This document shows positions 8,252-21,878 of a DNA stretch of 27,211 nt, piece by piece (within the stretch, counting starts at the first letter, position 1; each line of letters opens with the position of its first letter). The DNA lies in IMG/VR virus record IMGVR_UViG_3300035070_000242, positions 1-27,211 of that record; one strand, 5' to 3'. A model generated the notes under the pieces. The model had not been told where the DNA came from, did no database searches, and saw nothing but the letters and a program-made list of their open reading frames with translations. Made by a program: the position numbers and the translations under genes. This DNA is from a virus.

Positions 8252-10587
8252 TACATTCTCCTTGAACGTAGTGTATAGAACCCTTCCCACTCTGCGCTTT
8301 GGAAAACGCAAGGAAGGTGATTATCACTTTCTAGTACTATCTCTGTATCTGAGTTACCTACTACACCAAACTCGTAAGTACCACTATCAATAGCAGCCTT
8401 GTTTAGTAAGTTAGTAGCACCACCTACTATGCGTCCTGTAAAGGTACGTGTGTAAGTAGTACGTCTAGCAGGTGTACTCTTAACAGTAAAGAAACCTGTG
8501 TCGTTGTAAACTACAGACCAGTTACTAATACGTAGGTCTGCTGTAGTAACAGGATTGTTATTTATCTTAGGTACAGGTTCAGAGAACTGGTATTTAAATG
8601 TAAATGGTACACCAGCATATACTTTTTCACCAGCAGATAGTTTACCTGCTACAGCCGACAAAGCTATTATGCTACCATCTTGTGCAATATACTTAGTATT
8701 ACTATCTGTATAGGGTACAGTAGTTAGTCCTGATGTTTCTAGTTGTACTCGTCTGTCTAGGTGTATAGAAAAGCCACCATCTGTATAGGAAGCTGCCTCA
8801 TCTACTGATAGGTTAATACGTTCTAAGAATAAATTAGTACCTCGTTTAATTAGTAGGTAGATATCTGCTCTGTTAAATGATAGACCTATAACATCACCAC
8901 CAAATACCCATCGTGACCAAGATGCTTGTAGTTTTTCTCTACCTTGCCAGTAGTATCTATATACGTAGAACGCCTGTGCATCGTCAGAGGATTGTAGTAT
9001 GAGCATGTCTTCGTTAGAAGATGCTTGAATGTTTGTTATTTCACCATCAATGTACTCAGGTACGTGTGCTGTAATCTCACTAGCATCATTAGTATCTGTA
9101 TCAGTATCTACAAAGTATTCCCACATACCAGACCAAGCACCACGCTTAGAAGCAAAGTATACGTACTTACCAACCTGTGCTGGTTTAGCTCGTAGTGACG
9201 CCTCAAACTCTGTGGTGTTTGCTACGTTTACAGTCTCTGGTGTAAGTACAGGGTCTCCTGTTAGCTTAAACTGTGTTAAGTCAGAAAAGAGCAATAGTGC
9301 TTCGTTAAATGGTACAGCATGTTTAAGTATACTAACTTTGTTAGAGGACACAGCCACGTCAATGGGGTCACTATCTACAACTGTTAGTACTGACTTACGA
9401 AAGAAATCAAACGATGTAAACTCACCTGCACGAGATAACACTACATTTTCATCTGCTAGTAATCCTAATCTATTACGATGAAAGAATATATCTGCAATAG
9501 TAAATCCTACAAAAGATGGGTAGGGGTTAGTATCATCATCGCCTACTTTTCTTTCTGTGTAGGTTGCTACATCAAAAGTAAAGTTAGCACTTGCATCTTT
9601 AGTTAGTTTGTGTGGCATTGTAGCCGCATCTAAATTAATTAGAATATTAGGCTCTACTGTTTCTTTCCACACCCCATCACTAAATTTAACATAGAAATCG
9701 TCTTGTGCTTTCTGATTATCACCTGACACTTTTATGACAAAATCATTTGGAGATTCTACAGGTAGTTTTTTAAAATCAGGTGTTTCATCTTTAAATACGA
9801 GTAAGTGGTCTCCACCATGCGAATCACCTACCTCTACTTGAAAGTCTGTAGTATTAGTAGATTGAATATGTAGTACAGAACCATAACGAGTAATTGTAAT
9901 GCCAGTAACAGCAGAGGCGTTAGTAATGTTATCATAGTACGTAGTGCTAACACCTGTAGCTGAGAACGTGTCTAGGTTCTCTGCAATGATATCAGTAGAT
10001 GCACCACGTTCTGCGTTTTGTGCGTCTGCTGTACTACCTTGTGTACTAGACTTTGTAGCAAATTCTACAGTACTAGTACTAGAACCTTTGGTAATTACTA
10101 GTCGATAGGTAGAAGAATAATCAGCTTGCTTAACATATACTAGAGCTTCTGGATTACGTGTAGGTGATGTTGTAGCAGCTTTGGCTACTGTAGTGTTTTT
10201 ATTTACAATAAAGGTAGCATCAGCAATAGACACTGCCGCTAGTTCTTGGCTAGGGTCAGTCAATCCATTCAGATAAGAAGATGCGTTGTTAGTAACAGTA
10301 CGAGATGTACCATCTTTATCAAACACACGAATAGTACCTGCTGTGTCAATCACTAGAGAATAAAACTCATTCTCATCTCTACGAATAGTATGTATAAATG
10401 CTTTGTCAAGATTAGATATAGTTCCTAAGTCAGCCACATGCTGTGTGCTAGGACGTTTAGACAAGCCTGATACCACACTAGACAATCCATTCTCTTGTAA
10501 CTCTGCCTGTGTGTTTAGGCGTAGAGAAGGTGGCTGTTGAGATACCCCATTGATAAGGTTGGGGATAGATTGACTGATGAGTGCCAT
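8251..10587 (-). CDS. Tail tubular protein B (nozzle), T7 gp12-like
   Basis: 778 aa (T7 gp12 is 794 aa). It forms the nozzle below the portal/adaptor through which DNA leaves. The N-terminal signature SIPNLINGVSQQPPSLRL, followed by AELQENGLSSVVSGLSKRPS, is characteristic of gp12. Residues near 365-400 (FHRNRLGLLADENVVLSRAG) and the segment VSILKHAVPFNEALLLFS match the conserved core of the family. The remainder is beta-rich, Thr/Ser/Asn-heavy, as expected of the propeller and knob domains. The ATG overlaps the stop of the gp11 gene by one base (TAATG), and its own stop overlaps gp13 in the same way. Confidence 0.95.
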   Translation of the reverse strand: MALISQSIPNLINGVSQQPPSLRLNTQAELQENGLSSVVSGLSKRPSTQHVADLGTISNLDKAFIHTIRRDENEFYSLVIDTAGTIRVFDKDGTSRTVTNNASSYLNGLTDPSQELAAVSIADATFIVNKNTTVAKAATTSPTRNPEALVYVKQADYSSTYRLVITKGSSTSTVEFATKSSTQGSTADAQNAERGASTDIIAENLDTFSATGVSTTYYDNITNASAVTGITITRYGSVLHIQSTNTTDFQVEVGDSHGGDHLLVFKDETPDFKKLPVESPNDFVIKVSGDNQKAQDDFYVKFSDGVWKETVEPNILINLDAATMPHKLTKDASANFTFDVATYTERKVGDDDTNPYPSFVGFTIADIFFHRNRLGLLADENVVLSRAGEFTSFDFFRKSVLTVVDSDPIDVAVSSNKVSILKHAVPFNEALLLFSDLTQFKLTGDPVLTPETVNVANTTEFEASLRAKPAQVGKYVYFASKRGAWSGMWEYFVDTDTDTNDASEITAHVPEYIDGEITNIQASSNEDMLILQSSDDAQAFYVYRYYWQGREKLQASWSRWVFGGDVIGLSFNRADIYLLIKRGTNLFLERINLSVDEAASYTDGGFSIHLDRRVQLETSGLTTVPYTDSNTKYIAQDGSIIALSAVAGKLSAGEKVYAGVPFTFKYQFSEPVPKINNNPVTTADLRISNWSVVYNDTGFFTVKSTPARRTTYTRTFTGRIVGGATNLLNKAAIDSGTYEFGVVGNSDTEIVLESDNHLPCVFQSAEWEGFYTLRSRRM

Positions 10588-11171
10588 TAGAAAGTTCTCC
10601 TACCCTGCCTATCAATAATACTAAATGTATCATAGTTATCAAATATGTTGTGGTCATCAGCAGCCTTATCAAACTCTTTTAGTTCAAACAATGCTCGTTC
10701 TTCATCACGTATCTGAAAGTCGTGAAGAGTATTAGACCCAACAATACGGTCTTGAAATATTCTTGTTGCTCTGAGTGTAATATATCTTTTAGCTACCTCA
10801 GGCAAATCATTGAAAGTTAACTGAACCACTACATCTAAGTTTGTGTTTGCTCCAATGTTAAACGTATGGTTTTTTCTGTCATACATTTTTAAGCCACGCT
10901 GAACTAAGTCAGGGCTTTCTGCTTCTAGTGTAGCATCTGCACGTAGGATGTCTGTACCTAATACTATGTTACCGCTAGTGTCTGGTGCAAAAGATTTATT
11001 TAGTTCTGTGTTAAAGTGCCAGCCCATTGACTGCACTTCTCTGTCTACAGTGTTAAGTATAGTCTCTGCTATTTCGGCTTCAACCAAACCAGAGGAAAGG
11101 CTGTTGACAGGTGCTTCACCTATCGCAGAGAGCATAGTATTTACTGCATCTAGTTGGGTTGTTGTTGCCAT
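10587..11171 (-). CDS. Tail tubular protein A (head-tail adaptor), T7 gp11-like
   Basis: 194 aa (T7 gp11 is 196 aa). It forms the ring joining the portal to the nozzle. The N-terminus TTQLDAVNTMLSAIGEAPVN and the following ILNTVDREVQSMGWHFNTE are the hallmark of this family. Later blocks RYITLRATRIFQDRIVGS and the terminal YDTFSIIDRQGRRTF also fit. It starts one base after the stop of the upstream basic protein gene and ends overlapping gp12, so the two tail tube proteins are probably translated together. Confidence 0.95.
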   Translation of the reverse strand: MATTTQLDAVNTMLSAIGEAPVNSLSSGLVEAEIAETILNTVDREVQSMGWHFNTELNKSFAPDTSGNIVLGTDILRADATLEAESPDLVQRGLKMYDRKNHTFNIGANTNLDVVVQLTFNDLPEVAKRYITLRATRIFQDRIVGSNTLHDFQIRDEERALFELKEFDKAADDHNIFDNYDTFSIIDRQGRRTF

Positions 11172-11172
11172 G

Positions 11173-11430
11173 TTACGCTTTCCACTTCACCTTGTTAGCC
11201 CAAAATGCTGCACTGCTCTCGCCTTTGGCTATGTTTTTACGATGCCTGTCTTTGAAAGCTTTACGTTGTGTAGGATTTTGATTTGTCTTAGCACCTTGCT
11301 CACCAAACCTAATTAGTCTAGGTTTATCCTTTGTGCCTACAAGAACAGCGTGGGACTTCTTGGGATGGTTGGGCGTTCTTTTAGGTATTCTAAGACCTTT
11401 AAAGGTTTCTCCACCACGCTCTATAGCCAT
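11173..11430 (-). CDS. Small basic protein of unknown function (85 aa), capsid-tail interval
   Basis: 85 aa with 22 Lys/Arg and only 6 Asp/Glu. Key segments are GLRIPKRTPNHPKKSHAVL, PRLIRFGEQGAKT and RHRKNIAKGESSAAFWANKV. I recognise this arrangement (PKRTPxHPxKSH, LIRFGxQG, FKxRHxKNIAKGxxSAAxWAxKVKW) as a type of protein that recurs in marine podoviruses and some large algal viruses, but know of no established function. It is the fourth of four consecutive small basic proteins between capsid and tail tube A. Nucleic-acid binding or a minor virion component is plausible from its charge; neither is shown. Confidence 0.85.
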   Translation of the reverse strand: MAIERGGETFKGLRIPKRTPNHPKKSHAVLVGTKDKPRLIRFGEQGAKTNQNPTQRKAFKDRHRKNIAKGESSAAFWANKVKWKA

Positions 11431-11431
11431 A

Positions 11432-11548
11432 TCACTTCTTCTTTTTATACTTGTTAATCATAGGTTTGCCTGTCTTTTCAGCTTCTTTTTTAGCCGCAGC
11501 CATACCTGCTTTTGTGTACGAATATTTTTTACCTGCTACATTTGGCAT
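11432..11548 (-). CDS. Very small lysine-rich protein (38 aa), unknown function
   Basis: A 39-codon ORF that exactly fills the space between its neighbours: ATG at 11548, TGA at 11434-11432, one base before the next ATG at 11430. The product starts MPNVAGKKYSYTKAGMAAAK and ends in four lysines; 12 of 38 residues are Lys. Similar 'VAGKKxxYTxxGxAAAKK' mini-proteins are familiar from marine T7-like phages at this location. Support comes from the tight packing, clean composition and shared strand. The ribosome site is weak, so it may depend on coupling with the upstream gene. Confidence 0.75.
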   Translation of the reverse strand: MPNVAGKKYSYTKAGMAAAKKEAEKTGKPMINKYKKKK

Positions 11549-11550
11549 AA

Positions 11551-11787
11551 TTAAGTCCTATACTGTCTAGTTTTCTTTGCAATTTTTAGTGGTTGGCGCA
11601 CATGCTGTTTGCCTTTACGCTTACCTTCTCGTTTAGCTTTTGTTGTTGCCGCATACTCCGCAGCACTCAAACTTTTTATAGCTGCTGAAGGCAAGTATCT
11701 TTCTCCAGTTACAGAGGATTTCTTTCCAGATTTTGTTCGCCATTTTTGCTTTGTCCAATTCTTTAAACTTTGCTGTGGCGGCCTCAT
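11551..11787 (-). CDS. Small basic protein of unknown function (78 aa)
   Basis: 78 aa with 23 Lys/Arg and 3 acidic residues. Motifs are LKNWTKQKWRTKSGK, GERYLPSAAIKSLSAAEYAA and a Lys-rich C-terminus with QPLKIAKKTRQYR. I recognise this WTKQKWRTKSGK...ERYLPxxAIKxLSxxEYAATTxxKR arrangement from other marine viruses, without a known function. The start ATG overlaps the upstream stop as ATGA, indicating coupled translation. DNA or RNA binding is inferred from charge only. Confidence 0.85.
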   Translation of the reverse strand: MRPPQQSLKNWTKQKWRTKSGKKSSVTGERYLPSAAIKSLSAAEYAATTKAKREGKRKGKQHVRQPLKIAKKTRQYRT

Positions 11788-11978
11788 GTTGTATAGCCCC
11801 CACCTGCTTTTTTATAACGAGACGCAAGCAACTGAGCTTTTCTCGCTGACCACTGACCAGCGTTACCGCCTTTTGTACCAGCCTTAATAGCATTAAACAT
11901 ACGCTTACGCATGGCAGGTTTTGTGTAGTTACCAGCCTCATTGACACGTGACTTGTTAATTTTTAAATCTTTGCTCAT
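11784..11978 (-). CDS. Small basic protein of unknown function (64 aa), first gene after capsid
   Basis: 64 aa with 15 Lys/Arg and two acidic residues. The C-terminal half carries a distinctive GTKGGNAGQWSARKAQLLAS block followed by RYKKAGGGY, which I recognise from small proteins in marine phages and algal viruses; function not known. The ATG at 11978 lies just downstream of the capsid terminator, so expression would need read-through or a processed transcript. It is the first of four small basic genes ahead of tail tube A. A capsid decoration or DNA-binding role is speculation. Confidence 0.85.
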   Translation of the reverse strand: MSKDLKINKSRVNEAGNYTKPAMRKRMFNAIKAGTKGGNAGQWSARKAQLLASRYKKAGGGYTT

Positions 11979-11991
11979 GATACTGTCCTAT

Positions 11992-12023
11992 AAAAAGGAG
12001 AGAGGCACTAGTAACCTCTCCCC
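11992..12023 (-). terminator. Intrinsic terminator after the capsid gene
   Basis: On the minus strand GGGGAGAGG and CCTCTCTCC form a 9-bp stem (one G-U pair) around the 9-base loop TTACTAGTG, followed at once by TTTTT. It lies 8 bases beyond the capsid stop. This is the same place as terminator T-phi after gene 10 in T7, which lowers transcription of the tail genes relative to capsid. Confidence 0.88.
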
Positions 12024-12031
12024 AATATTAA

Positions 12032-13147
12032 TTAGGCTTGTGACAAAGCAACGCATGATGCTGGACGCAGGACGTTGTGTCCCATTGCGTACTTAGCAAC
12101 CATGAGTGTACCTTGACGATTAATCTGGTACTCAGATTCCATGCCCAAGTCAAGCAACTTGACAGTAGCTACAGCGTCAGGAGTAAACACAAAGCCCTTA
12201 AACTTAGCAGCAAGAGCAACCATGTCTGCACCATCTACAGCAGCAGTAGGCAGGTCATAGTGAGTTGTGCGGCCTGAACCAGCAGTATTAGCTAGTGGAG
12301 CGTTATCAGAAGTCTTACCTTCGTTAGCATCACCAGTAGTGAAGTTCACATACAGGTTAGATACGTTAGCATGGTTAGACATAAGGATAGGCATACCAGC
12401 AATAGAAGCTACAGTTGCGTTAGCTACTGAACCATTGCCACCAAAGTCACGATTCATGTAGACAAGCTTATTGCCATCAGTTACGTCCATCAACGCATAG
12501 TACTGGTCAGGAGCAAGAACTACACATGCACCATCAGTTGGTACGTTCTTTACTTCCATCTCTTTACGTGCGTCAAAGATAGCTTTGGCAATCTTAGCTG
12601 GGTCTGTCGCATCGCCAGCAGCAGTACCGATAGTTACGTTATCAGTAAAGTCTTCTTCACCAAATGCTTTATAGTCTTGTACAAGACCAGCAGCACGAGT
12701 TGCGTTAGTTGACAGCGCAGCTTTTACCAGCATACGTGCTACGTTACGGTCAGCTTCGTTAGCCAACGCAATACCAGCTTCTTTAGAGTAGATGCTGCGT
12801 ACATCGTAGTGGTTAATAGCTTCGTCAATGTTCGCAATGAACTGAGAGCTAATCAGCAAATCGTCAATGGTTACAATGCGTTCACCTGCTCGGATGCTAC
12901 CACCAGTAATTTCATTTCCTGGGGTTAGGTATTCGGCAGTTGCACGTCCTGTCATTGGGAACGATGCTGATTTGCCTTTGGAAATAGTACGAGTACGTAC
13001 TTTATCCATAAGGACTTTCTTTTCCTCAAAGGCAGTCAGAACCTCTCCAGCATACAGCTTTAGGAAGAGGTCACGAACGTCACCTGTGAGGTTATTTTGG
13101 CCTTGAAAGCTTACGCTATAGGCCGGATTTGAAGCGGCTGAAGCCAT
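12032..13147 (-). CDS. Major capsid protein, T7 gp10-like
   Basis: 371 aa (T7 gp10A is 344 aa), the HK97-fold shell protein. I chose the ATG at 13147 because GAGG lies 8 bases upstream; an in-frame GTG at 13156 would add three residues and lies within that ribosome site. Conserved blocks include LFLKLYAGEVLTAFEEKKV near the N-terminus, SASFPMTGRATAEYLTPGNE, the RIVTIDDLLISSQFI strand and, further on, VVLAPDQYYALMD. The gene has a long leader with hairpins and a following terminator, both expected of the most abundantly made phage protein. No sign of a frameshifted longer form (gp10B) was seen at the 3' end. Confidence 0.95.
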   Translation of the reverse strand: MASAASNPAYSVSFQGQNNLTGDVRDLFLKLYAGEVLTAFEEKKVLMDKVRTRTISKGKSASFPMTGRATAEYLTPGNEITGGSIRAGERIVTIDDLLISSQFIANIDEAINHYDVRSIYSKEAGIALANEADRNVARMLVKAALSTNATRAAGLVQDYKAFGEEDFTDNVTIGTAAGDATDPAKIAKAIFDARKEMEVKNVPTDGACVVLAPDQYYALMDVTDGNKLVYMNRDFGGNGSVANATVASIAGMPILMSNHANVSNLYVNFTTGDANEGKTSDNAPLANTAGSGRTTHYDLPTAAVDGADMVALAAKFKGFVFTPDAVATVKLLDLGMESEYQINRQGTLMVAKYAMGHNVLRPASCVALSQA

Positions 13148-13241
13148 CTTATTCACCTCATTATGTTTAAGTTAAAGTTAGTGCCTCAACTTTACTATAC
13201 TTTCGCCAACAGATTGTCCCTCGCAAGGGGTCAGGGTTATT

Positions 13242-19535: not shown

Positions 19536-19731
19536 CGTCCATACCTCTTCGTTCTAATCGTTCCTGTAATTCTAGCCTATCTTTCATCTGCTGCAACGTG
19601 ATAACTTGAATACCTTTCATTACTTGTTGATAATCAAGGTAGGTTTCTACAATCCACTTAATACATAAGCATATTGTAACACCAAAGAAGCAACAGGTCA
19701 AGACTAACTTAAACATAAAATCAAAGTCCAT
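19516..19731 (-). CDS. Small single-span membrane protein, unknown function
   Basis: 71 aa. A hydrophobic, Cys-rich span (residues about 9-28, KLVLTCCFFGVTICLCIKWI) is followed by a charged helical tail (MKDRLELQERLERRGMDDDD). With the short acidic N-terminus, a type II-like inner membrane topology or a peripheral coiled coil is possible. It overlaps both neighbours by 11 and 20 bases. I do not recognise it; it is too isolated from lysis genes to be called a holin. Confidence 0.75.
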   Translation of the reverse strand: MDFDFMFKLVLTCCFFGVTICLCIKWIVETYLDYQQVMKGIQVITLQQMKDRLELQERLERRGMDDDDFAS

Positions 19732-20194
19732 GCTGTATACACTCCTTTGCTTGGCCTACAGACATCTTGAACCACTCACCACTACGTTCTGCCACTTGCT
19801 CTGCTCTCTTGTGGGCTTCACGTTCTGCCTTTCGTCTGTTTTTAGTATAGACAGCATAGGCTAGTTTGTAGTCACGCATTGGGCTACCTGTTTGATAGTT
19901 GTTCAATCTATCTTCTGCACTCATAGACTGTCCTATCTTAACCCAATCAGGCCATGCTGAGTTAGTAATAATGTACACTTCACCTGACTTCTTCTCGTTG
20001 TAAGAACGAATGGCTGTTGCACCAATCTGTTTGGCTAGTCTTTTGAGCCTGTTCTTTCTACCCTTGATGCTGTCACATGTTCGACATGTGTACTGCTTGG
20101 TACGAGCGTTACCCTCTGACCAGTTGTCTCCATGTATCAGAGGTGTTGAACAGTGTAGACATTCTCTAGTGGGTGTCTGCCCAATTTCTGCCAT
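19721..20194 (-). CDS. GIY-YIG-like (T5orf172-type) endonuclease with zinc ribbon, probable homing endonuclease
   Basis: 157 aa from the ATG at 20194, preceded by GTGAG; an in-frame ATG at 20281 lies deeper inside the polymerase gene. N-terminal CLHCSTPLIHGDNW...CRTC (residues about 12-43) forms a CxxC...CxxC zinc ribbon, then basic KGRKNRLKRLAK. Residues about 70-145 have the T5orf172/GIY-YIG pattern: GEVYIITNSAWPDWVKIGQS, DRLNNYQTGSPMRDY, an Arg/Glu/His helix (RRKAEREAHKRAE) and SGEWFKM. Such genes are typical freestanding mobile endonucleases of phages, often placed beside DNA polymerase or RNR genes. It overlaps the end of the DNA polymerase gene by 29 bases. Confidence 0.85.
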   Translation of the reverse strand: MAEIGQTPTRECLHCSTPLIHGDNWSEGNARTKQYTCRTCDSIKGRKNRLKRLAKQIGATAIRSYNEKKSGEVYIITNSAWPDWVKIGQSMSAEDRLNNYQTGSPMRDYKLAYAVYTKNRRKAEREAHKRAEQVAERSGEWFKMSVGQAKECIQHGL

Positions 20195-21878
20195 ATTTGT
20201 ACTCACTATCGAGCTTGCATCTGAAGTTGTAGTGTCGCTCGACTTCTTCCATACATAGCTGAATAAGTTTGCCTGTTGCATCTTCTTGACCTTTCTTTAC
20301 TACTAGTTGTACCTCATCATGGATGAACGCTACAATCTGTGCGTCCAAGTTTGCTTCCTTGATAGCACGTGCTATGAACACGTACCAAGTCTTACAGATT
20401 ATTGCGCCAGCAGACTGAAGCAAAGTGTTCAGTGAAGCATGGCTATGACGAACTGGTATGGCTCTACCATCCAATCCTTTCACCCATCCTCTGTCCTCTG
20501 CCGCTTTAGCAACAGCGTCCTTCAGATACTTTAGAGCAGGTAGTTTCTTCAGAAACTTATTCTTGATAGACTTACCTTCCTTACTTCCTTTGTTGATTAT
20601 CTTACCAATCTTCTCATCACCTGCGCCATACAAAAATCCATAGATAAATGTCTTGGCGTTGGAACGTGTGGGTAGACCAGCAGCTTCTTGGTTTATGGTG
20701 TGAATGTCACCATTGACTACCTCGTGTGCGTAAGACCCATCATCGTAAGCAGCCATATAATGAGCAAGACAGCGCAACTCCAACCCACTAGCATCAGCAC
20801 CCAAGAGGGAATAACCTGTGGGTGCATGAAACAAACTCCTACACTCACTACCAAATGGCGAACCCACGCTAGGAACTTGCGCCATGTTTGGATTATTGTG
20901 CGTACAACGTGACGTGACAGCACCCATGTGATTAACTCTACCATGTAACTTACCATCCCTTTCCACCTTTAGCCAAGCCTGTTTGCCTGTAGCTAACTGA
21001 CCTATGCGTTTATTCAGGAGTAGGTACTCGCTCAGTAGTTTTGCTTCTGGCATTTCTAGTTTTTCTAGCACAGCCTCGTCTACCTTAGGTTCACCTGTGT
21101 TAGTAAAGCTAGTAGGCTTCCATCCTTTTGACATCAACCTCTCACCAATCTGCTTTCGTGATGCAGGATTGAATGGGATTGTCTTTGTCTTGGTCTTCAT
21201 CTCAACAACAGTAGGTTCAAATACTTCCTGTAGTTGTGTCTCAATGTTGTTCTTACGCTCTGCTATCTCAGCGTACAGAGATTGTGCAGCCTTTATATCA
21301 AAGTCAAAGCCACGTTTCTCCTGCTCTATCAGCAGAGTGTGTATCTCAGTCTCAAGGTCTAACGCCCCTTGGCTGAAATTTTTTTCCAGAATTTTCTGAT
21401 AAAGTTTTCTTGTAACTTTGGTGTCTTGCACACAGTAGTCGAGCATCTCTTTGCTGTAACTTCCAAAGTCCTGACTATCACCACCGAAATCACCTTTTAA
21501 TTCTCCTAGTCTGTAGCCCCAAGCTTTTAGGCTCTGCCTACCTAGCAGTGCCATAGGCATCTTGCCTTGCTTGTGTAGCTTAAAGTCAACCTCACGTATG
21601 TCAGGCCAAATAGTTCTAGAGTATACCAACGTGTCAAGAACCTGTTGTCCATCTTCTAACTCAAAGCTATACAGCTTCCTGAGTACTGCTAAGTCATACT
21701 CAATAATGTTATGACCTATCAACATCTCAGCACTAGCTAGATGAAGCAACCCATCCTCAATACAAGTGGGGTCAAAGGCGTACACTTCGTCAGTGTCCAC
21801 ATCTCTTGTGACAATGCACCACACCTGTGTTACATCGTCTAATAAGTTATCTGCTTCTATATCAAATATTAGTTTCAT
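20166..21878 (-). CDS. Family A DNA polymerase, T7 gp5-like, lacking the thioredoxin-binding insertion
   Basis: 570 aa (T7 gp5 is 704 aa). Proofreading exonuclease motifs: FDIEADNL (Asp6, Glu8), GHNIIEYDL (Asp62), YCVQDTKVT (Asp152). Polymerase motifs: A at LGADASGLELR (Asp362), B at RSNAKTFIYGFLYGAG (Lys409, Tyr413) and C at FIHDEVQ (Asp521). Tyr at the position of E. coli Pol I Phe762 is the T7-type variant. Between VFEPTVVEM and PFNPASRKQ, where T7 has a thumb insertion of about 76 residues that binds host thioredoxin, there are only around ten residues. Replicative polymerase working with the primase-helicase encoded just upstream. Ribosome site GGAGA precedes the ATG. Confidence 0.97.
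   Translation of the reverse strand: MKLIFDIEADNLLDDVTQVWCIVTRDVDTDEVYAFDPTCIEDGLLHLASAEMLIGHNIIEYDLAVLRKLYSFELEDGQQVLDTLVYSRTIWPDIREVDFKLHKQGKMPMALLGRQSLKAWGYRLGELKGDFGGDSQDFGSYSKEMLDYCVQDTKVTRKLYQKILEKNFSQGALDLETEIHTLLIEQEKRGFDFDIKAAQSLYAEIAERKNNIETQLQEVFEPTVVEMKTKTKTIPFNPASRKQIGERLMSKGWKPTSFTNTGEPKVDEAVLEKLEMPEAKLLSEYLLLNKRIGQLATGKQAWLKVERDGKLHGRVNHMGAVTSRCTHNNPNMAQVPSVGSPFGSECRSLFHAPTGYSLLGADASGLELRCLAHYMAAYDDGSYAHEVVNGDIHTINQEAAGLPTRSNAKTFIYGFLYGAGDEKIGKIINKGSKEGKSIKNKFLKKLPALKYLKDAVAKAAEDRGWVKGLDGRAIPVRHSHASLNTLLQSAGAIICKTWYVFIARAIKEANLDAQIVAFIHDEVQLVVKKGQEDATGKLIQLCMEEVERHYNFRCKLDSEYKYGRNWADTH

Follow-up and report, generated by a model that had tools for sequence, protein, structure and literature searches.

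The window analysed here is the full 27,211-nt stretch of IMG/VR record IMGVR_UViG_3300035070_000242, in which positions 11173–11978 hold a four-gene interval (Table 1). All four of the small genes that the initial annotation had placed end to end (85, 38, 78, and 64 residues) were recovered as ORFs on the minus strand, and they are named here D, C, B, and A, respectively. Genes A and B overlap by 4 bases (ATGA), and gaps of 1–2 bases separate the next junctions (B/C and C/D). The interval lies, as had been proposed, between capsid and tail genes, where its flanks encode the major head protein and a tail protein of the gp11 type. In T7, no gene lies between 10 and 11; the cyanopodovirus P-SCSP1q carries two small genes in its capsid-to-tail interval. 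Each of A–D matches its own PHROG (E = 1e-36 to 2e-10) and is therefore regarded as a real gene, although all four PHROGs are without an assigned function. The strong basicity described for the products was confirmed in all four (pI 10.2–11.4; net charge +13, +20, +10, and +16 for A, B, C, and D, i.e., +10 to +20). When the 24 listed minus-strand genes of the window were ranked by charge per residue, A–D took the top four places, and the chance of four consecutive genes doing so is about 0.002; the medians of the A–D families range from 0.20 to 0.29 charges per residue. In 71 of 78 loci, a hairpin like that of the window lies no more than 90 nt from the stop codon of the capsid gene. Because the hairpin of the window separates the capsid gene from A, the four genes are probably transcribed by read-through past the capsid-gene terminator. 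Elsewhere in the window, the DNA polymerase gene is overlapped at its 3′ end by a small ORF (19721–20281) with a sequence suggestive of a GIY-YIG/T5orf172 nuclease.

Table 1 Genes and other features in and around the capsid-to-tail interval of the window.
Feature	Position	Strand	Assignment and remarks
Gene A, 64 aa	11784..11978	-	phrog_17747; N-terminal half of DUF5872 (profile alignment)
Gene B, 78 aa	11551..11787	-	phrog_14910; C-terminal half of DUF5872 (profile alignment)
Gene C, 38 aa	11432..11548	-	phrog_33179; often just upstream of D
Gene D, 85 aa	11173..11430	-	phrog_7595; Tlr6F/DUF5754 family
Terminator-like hairpin between capsid gene and A	11997..12023	-	GGGGAGAGGTTACTAGTGCCTCTCTCC TTTTTA; 10-pair stem
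Major capsid protein, upstream flank of slot	12032..13156	-	phrog_267, E 6e-79
Tail protein, T7 gp11-like, downstream flank of slot	10587..11171	-	phrog_446, E 2e-51

On the evidence of profile alignments, DUF5872 (PF19197) is split here into two adjacent genes, with A as one half and B as the other. An alignment of fused bacterial and phage proteins (A7), which includes proteins scoring over the PF19197 cut-off, matched A (99.3%, E = 7e-21) and B (99.9%, E = 2e-33) in profile comparisons, with A aligning to the N-terminal half of the domain and B to the C-terminal half. Singly, A and B of the window had no Pfam match and did not reach the curated PF19197 cut-off, and the best relative of B also remained below threshold (E = 0.0022). 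The conserved core of A reads GQWSARKAQ-LA--YK--GGGY, and SL--W--QKWRTKSGK---TGERYLP--A is conserved in B. A–B is a single ORF in cyanophage S-CRES1 (gp97) and in related viral contigs, and the S-CRES1 fusion covers positions 4–113 of the 116 in the DUF5872 model, whereas the window phage and most marine phages examined use two genes and a fusion in SAR11 has the halves reversed (B–A). The existence of fusions in both orders indicates that the halves work together. One split protein thus accounts for two families that are common among the small ‘hypothetical’ proteins of marine phages. The AlphaFold (AF2) model of B (pLDDT 92.5) gave no usable fold match when compared to the PDB with VIA-align, and the profiles of A, B, and D found no relatives by sequence in the PDB. 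At two loci (L074:5257-6165 and L092:2551-3195), A forms the C-terminus of longer lysine-rich ORFs that contain several other small basic segments.

The four families had been described as recurring in marine phages and algal viruses, often together. Their recurrence in marine phages was borne out for all of A–D, which are widespread there, and joint occurrence holds for A and B, which are nearly always paired, but not for D, which is separable from them. Among IMG/VR contigs, many of them fragments, 79 of 80 A-seeded loci contained partner B and 72 of 80 B-seeded loci contained partner A. In all 170 A–B pairs, the two genes share a strand and A precedes B; in about 100 pairs they lie within 36 bp. 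The isolates with A–B are unrelated phages: pelagiphages, HMO-2011, roseophages, Methylophilales phages, and cyanophages. Of the cultured phages, HTVC034P and MEP401 have A–B, P12053L has D, and CRP-13 has A, B, and D. Neighbours of at least 150 aa include the terminase large subunit, endolysin, and tail lysozyme, and some copies of A–B and of D are not beside capsid genes but close to lysis, replication, or tail genes. D was present in 13 of 25 A–B contigs of at least 30 kb, and B and D lay within 1.5 kb of each other in 9 of the 15 contigs having both (about one expected). Of 80 D-seeded loci, 22 also contained C, in most cases upstream of D by a few hundred bases; a tblastn search with C, a short query of 38 aa, gave no match.

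Since at least 2013–2015, Tlr6F/DUF5754 has been on record, without an assigned function, as a protein that phages have in common with polinton-like viruses, virophages, and giant viruses. We found a match to DUF5754 (PF19058) in 34 of 69 sampled, diverse D relatives (best E = 4e-11), although D of the window itself scores 15.3 bits, under the curated cut-off of 27.4; two aligned members of its family exceed this value (L021: 40.7 bits; L139: 43.2 bits). DUF5754 corresponds to Tlr6F of polinton-like viruses, virophages, and Nucleocytoviricota, described as being without known function (PMC12220804, PMC4642659), and our literature search on DUF5754/Tlr6F returned no report of a biochemical function. 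The expected recurrence in algal viruses was upheld by a haptophyte virus that encodes both DUF5754 and DUF5872 proteins (PMC12085832). The AF2 model of D (pLDDT 92) had no convincing fold match in the PDB (Foldseek, VIA-align); in BFVD, Foldseek matched it to XkdF- and ChaB-named phage proteins, ORF125 of phage ICP1, and a marseillevirus protein (E = 0.0096). The ‘tail tube initiator’ family PF23980 was also considered for D members and rejected, its best match (E = 0.0012) being under the cut-off.

Fusions of the D domain point to the head. The D family (phrog_7595) matches residues 184–261 of ICP1 ORF125 (E = 6e-11), and the folds of D and ORF125 are similar (Foldseek: E = 2e-4, TM 0.75). 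Residues 29–183 of ORF125 match the head maturation protease and XkdF/Peptidase_S78_2 (domain at 36–160), and residues 175–267 match phrog_220, ‘minor head protein and DNA pilot’ (E = 4e-8). ORF125 lies in the head gene cluster, between the terminase and capsid genes, and its product Gp125 (phrog_9979) is a predicted scaffold-degrading capsid protease (PMC9040626). In a protein of Aphanizomenon phage CL131, D (~512–604) follows a portal domain (60–419) and precedes InPase (631–752) and MuF (991–1103) domains; portal/MuF fusions have been described as packaged and injected (PMC5512222). The D domain also occurs at the N-terminus of a large phrog_5880 protein. Because it recurs in the C-terminus of a capsid protease and in a portal-MuF protein, D is probably head-associated, which would place Tlr6F at the procapsid, a concrete and testable location. 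D of the window is a free and basic protein. Its ICP1 counterpart belongs to a larger protease and has almost no net charge (+1 over 79 aa), and the CL131 domain is also weakly basic (+7 over 105 aa); therefore, strong basicity belongs to the stand-alone D rather than being intrinsic to the domain. In the window, D does not have a protease gene next to it; the genes upstream encode capsid, scaffold, and portal proteins. The suggestion of a capsid-associated set thus holds in part: D has a capsid link, but the four genes do not form a set.

To describe the capsid-to-tail interval in other phages, relatives were seeded with the capsid protein and the content between the capsid and tail genes was classified. 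In 76 loci with both flanks, window included, this content was C–D (39), D (19), A–B–C–D (14), A–B–C (3), or without any A–D match (1), and because loci were ranked by similarity and many contigs are fragments, the counts describe near relatives rather than the whole virosphere and absences are uncertain. This variation rules out the idea of the four genes as one conserved operon. The conserved set that had been envisaged was likewise not supported: most relatives have D without A–B, and about half of the larger contigs have A–B without D. The capsid-to-tail region is a slot of swappable parts, not one conserved block. Among the relatives found with the capsid protein, neither A nor B occurs without the other; the presence of the pair changes state eight times on the capsid tree (82 rows), with at least five changes forced by well-supported branches, and this count may partly reflect recombination between capsid and slot. 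The three A–B–C loci and the locus without A–D matches have a DUF6321 (PF19846) protein where D would be (shown for L289, L292, and L293; e.g., L289:7150-7428 and L292:3896-4162). DUF6321 occupies the same slot instead of D in L289 and L292–L294, and a DUF6321-like protein is found in the slot of P-SCSP1q. A shared origin of DUF6321 and D is no more than hinted at, by matches in 6 of 69 D members (best E = 0.005). In L273, a DUF6496-like peptide stands in place of C (E = 0.0017, below cut-off).

Some further observations concern these families. A DUF6321 protein is encoded at L392:4447-4701, and in the T4-like phage ACG-2014d a DUF6321-like segment forms the C-terminus of a protein of about 400 aa near gp16. 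A contig from single-cell genome AG-422-I18 (L343), labelled Candidatus Poseidoniales archaeon, is 94% identical to the window over 9 kb and has the same order (MCP–A–B–C–D–tail); the virus was either sorted along with the cell or has a host link that was not expected.

B was used to scan bacterial and archaeal genomes, and subsequent genome searches recovered fused A–B and B–A genes in bacteria. In Alphaproteobacteria, DUF5872 scored over its cut-off at a fused A–B gene in three genomes and below it in a fourth (E = 3e-4), and the genomic contexts of these fusions look chromosomal. Two bacterial DUF5872 proteins have a C-terminal tail with a sub-threshold resemblance to Rho_N (E = 0.035 and 0.094). 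SAR11 bacteria are among the most abundant cell groups in the ocean, and here the halves are joined as B–A in one ORF, typically of 138 aa, in 18 Pelagibacteraceae contigs, several of which exceed 100 kb. The neighbourhood is non-phage (DUF1365-like, CFA synthase, lipoprotein, SDR, SDR, B–A, TspO, FAD oxidoreductase, and formate dehydrogenase alpha, with the DUF1365-like and lipoprotein genes read from sequence), and its gene order is kept in most loci, the others retaining at least one SDR neighbour. A full-length B–A gene is present in 6 of the 397 Pelagibacterales genomes that were sampled and, for one genus, in 9 of 23, figures that come from single representative genomes sampling a group. 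The SAR11 gene is under purifying selection (median dN/dS 0.108 over 125 pairs, a simple pairwise estimate with high synonymous divergence).

All SAR11 B–A copies form one clade (support 100/99). When the tree was rooted on the three bacterial A–B fusions, the split phage pairs and SAR11 B–A formed one group (99/99), in which the pair of pelagiphage HTVC034P lay nearest to the SAR11 gene, a placement with weak support (63/80). If this root and direction, which are assumptions, are correct, a fused DUF5872 ancestor would have been split in phages and later captured and re-fused in SAR11. The result ties the split phage pair to a gene that is conserved in part of SAR11. Since A and B also occur as single chromosomal genes in bacteria, the family does not consist purely of virion proteins, and these copies make a virion-only role for A–B unlikely. 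It is possible, although we give the idea clearly less than even weight, that A–B is a small, portable protein of cellular type that passes between ocean bacteria and their phages, that the phage split was followed by SAR11 capture and reversed re-fusion beside membrane-lipid and TspO genes, and that the phage genes share the cellular target of the host gene. Other SAR11 contigs contain a separate A–B pair. In one of them (L378), the pair directly follows a T7-type terminase with an integrase-like gene, read from sequence, nearby; it is therefore probably part of a prophage. In SAR11 contig L345, phage genes including D, A, and B end beside apparent host nucleotide-salvage genes, and so the pair may mark a prophage edge.

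The interpretation that we favour, tentatively and with somewhat more doubt than confidence, is an accessory slot of small basic late proteins, in which A–B would be one nucleic-acid-binding unit, D a head-interior or procapsid domain, and C a companion of D. The slot, behind the capsid-gene terminator, would be filled from a pool of such proteins. A and B would act jointly, presumably as an A:B complex, binding nucleic acid through a basic surface in late infection. D would most likely be associated with the head interior or procapsid, and in stand-alone form it may act while the head matures or the genome is packaged, or it may travel inside the head; C would be optional. Judging from charge, nucleic-acid binding by A, B, and C is plausible. 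Searches with A, B, and D gave it no support from solved structures or PDB fold matches, and no virion proteomes naming A–D proteins were found in the literature.

Several other roles could be envisaged for these proteins. The initial annotation had raised a DNA-condensing system. In such a system, all four proteins would be packaged and neutralise DNA charge in the capsid. The strong positive charge of all four, the location beside head genes, and the link of D to protease, portal, and MuF proteins are consistent with it, but the four genes are separable, most close relatives are without A–B, A–B is also chromosomal in bacteria, and the head-fused D domain is not strongly basic. In addition, neutralising a whole genome would presumably need very many copies of such small products, encoded behind a terminator. 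The modular slot and the bacterial A–B copies thus weaken this explanation, which is possible but unlikely. Alternatively, these may be virion-carried, injected accessory proteins, by analogy with polyvalent proteins, with D as a head-targeting domain that brings itself or a fusion partner into the head for delivery. Its presence within a portal-InPase-MuF polyprotein, a context described as packaged and injected (PMC5512222), and at the N-terminus of the large phrog_5880 protein argue for delivery. Its fusion to a protease, an enzyme of assembly rather than delivery, argues against it, and we consider an injected role improbable.

Position straight after the major capsid gene would suit a role in capsid cementing or decoration, with binding to the outer or inner lattice. 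However, D relatives exist in viruses with unrelated capsid folds (polinton-like viruses and Nucleocytoviricota, together with the marseillevirus fold match), with which a lattice-specific cement does not fit, and DUF6321 can substitute for D in the slot, so that such a function is very improbable. A non-structural role in the cytoplasm, in host takeover or stress, would make A–B the phage version of a cellular small nucleic-acid-binding protein acting on the host nucleoid, RNA, or ribosomes. It draws on the SAR11 B–A gene, with its conserved non-phage neighbourhood (SDR, CFA synthase, TspO, and FAD oxidoreductase), dN/dS of about 0.11, and single clade (100/99), as well as on the other chromosomal DUF5872 genes. 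The phage copies, however, are often among late genes (terminase, endolysin, and capsid), which is unexpected for early takeover genes, and bacterial copies are rare; we therefore regard this role as rather doubtful.

The surroundings of the chromosomal DUF5872 genes, whose neighbour annotations are largely read from sequence, provided two minor observations. At L424, L425, and L430, from small alphaproteobacterial genomes, the A–B fusion adjoins a gene that reads like the Bax-inhibitor-1 family, and a similar gene lies within 5 kb in L433. A search for D in 289 Alphaproteobacteria, run without a positive control, gave no match. Next to a chromosomal DUF5872 gene in a bacterial contig, L436:5782-6099 encodes 106 aa that show a D-like pattern (SAYFARH...YIAWMLWGG) and score just 4.5 bits against the D model.
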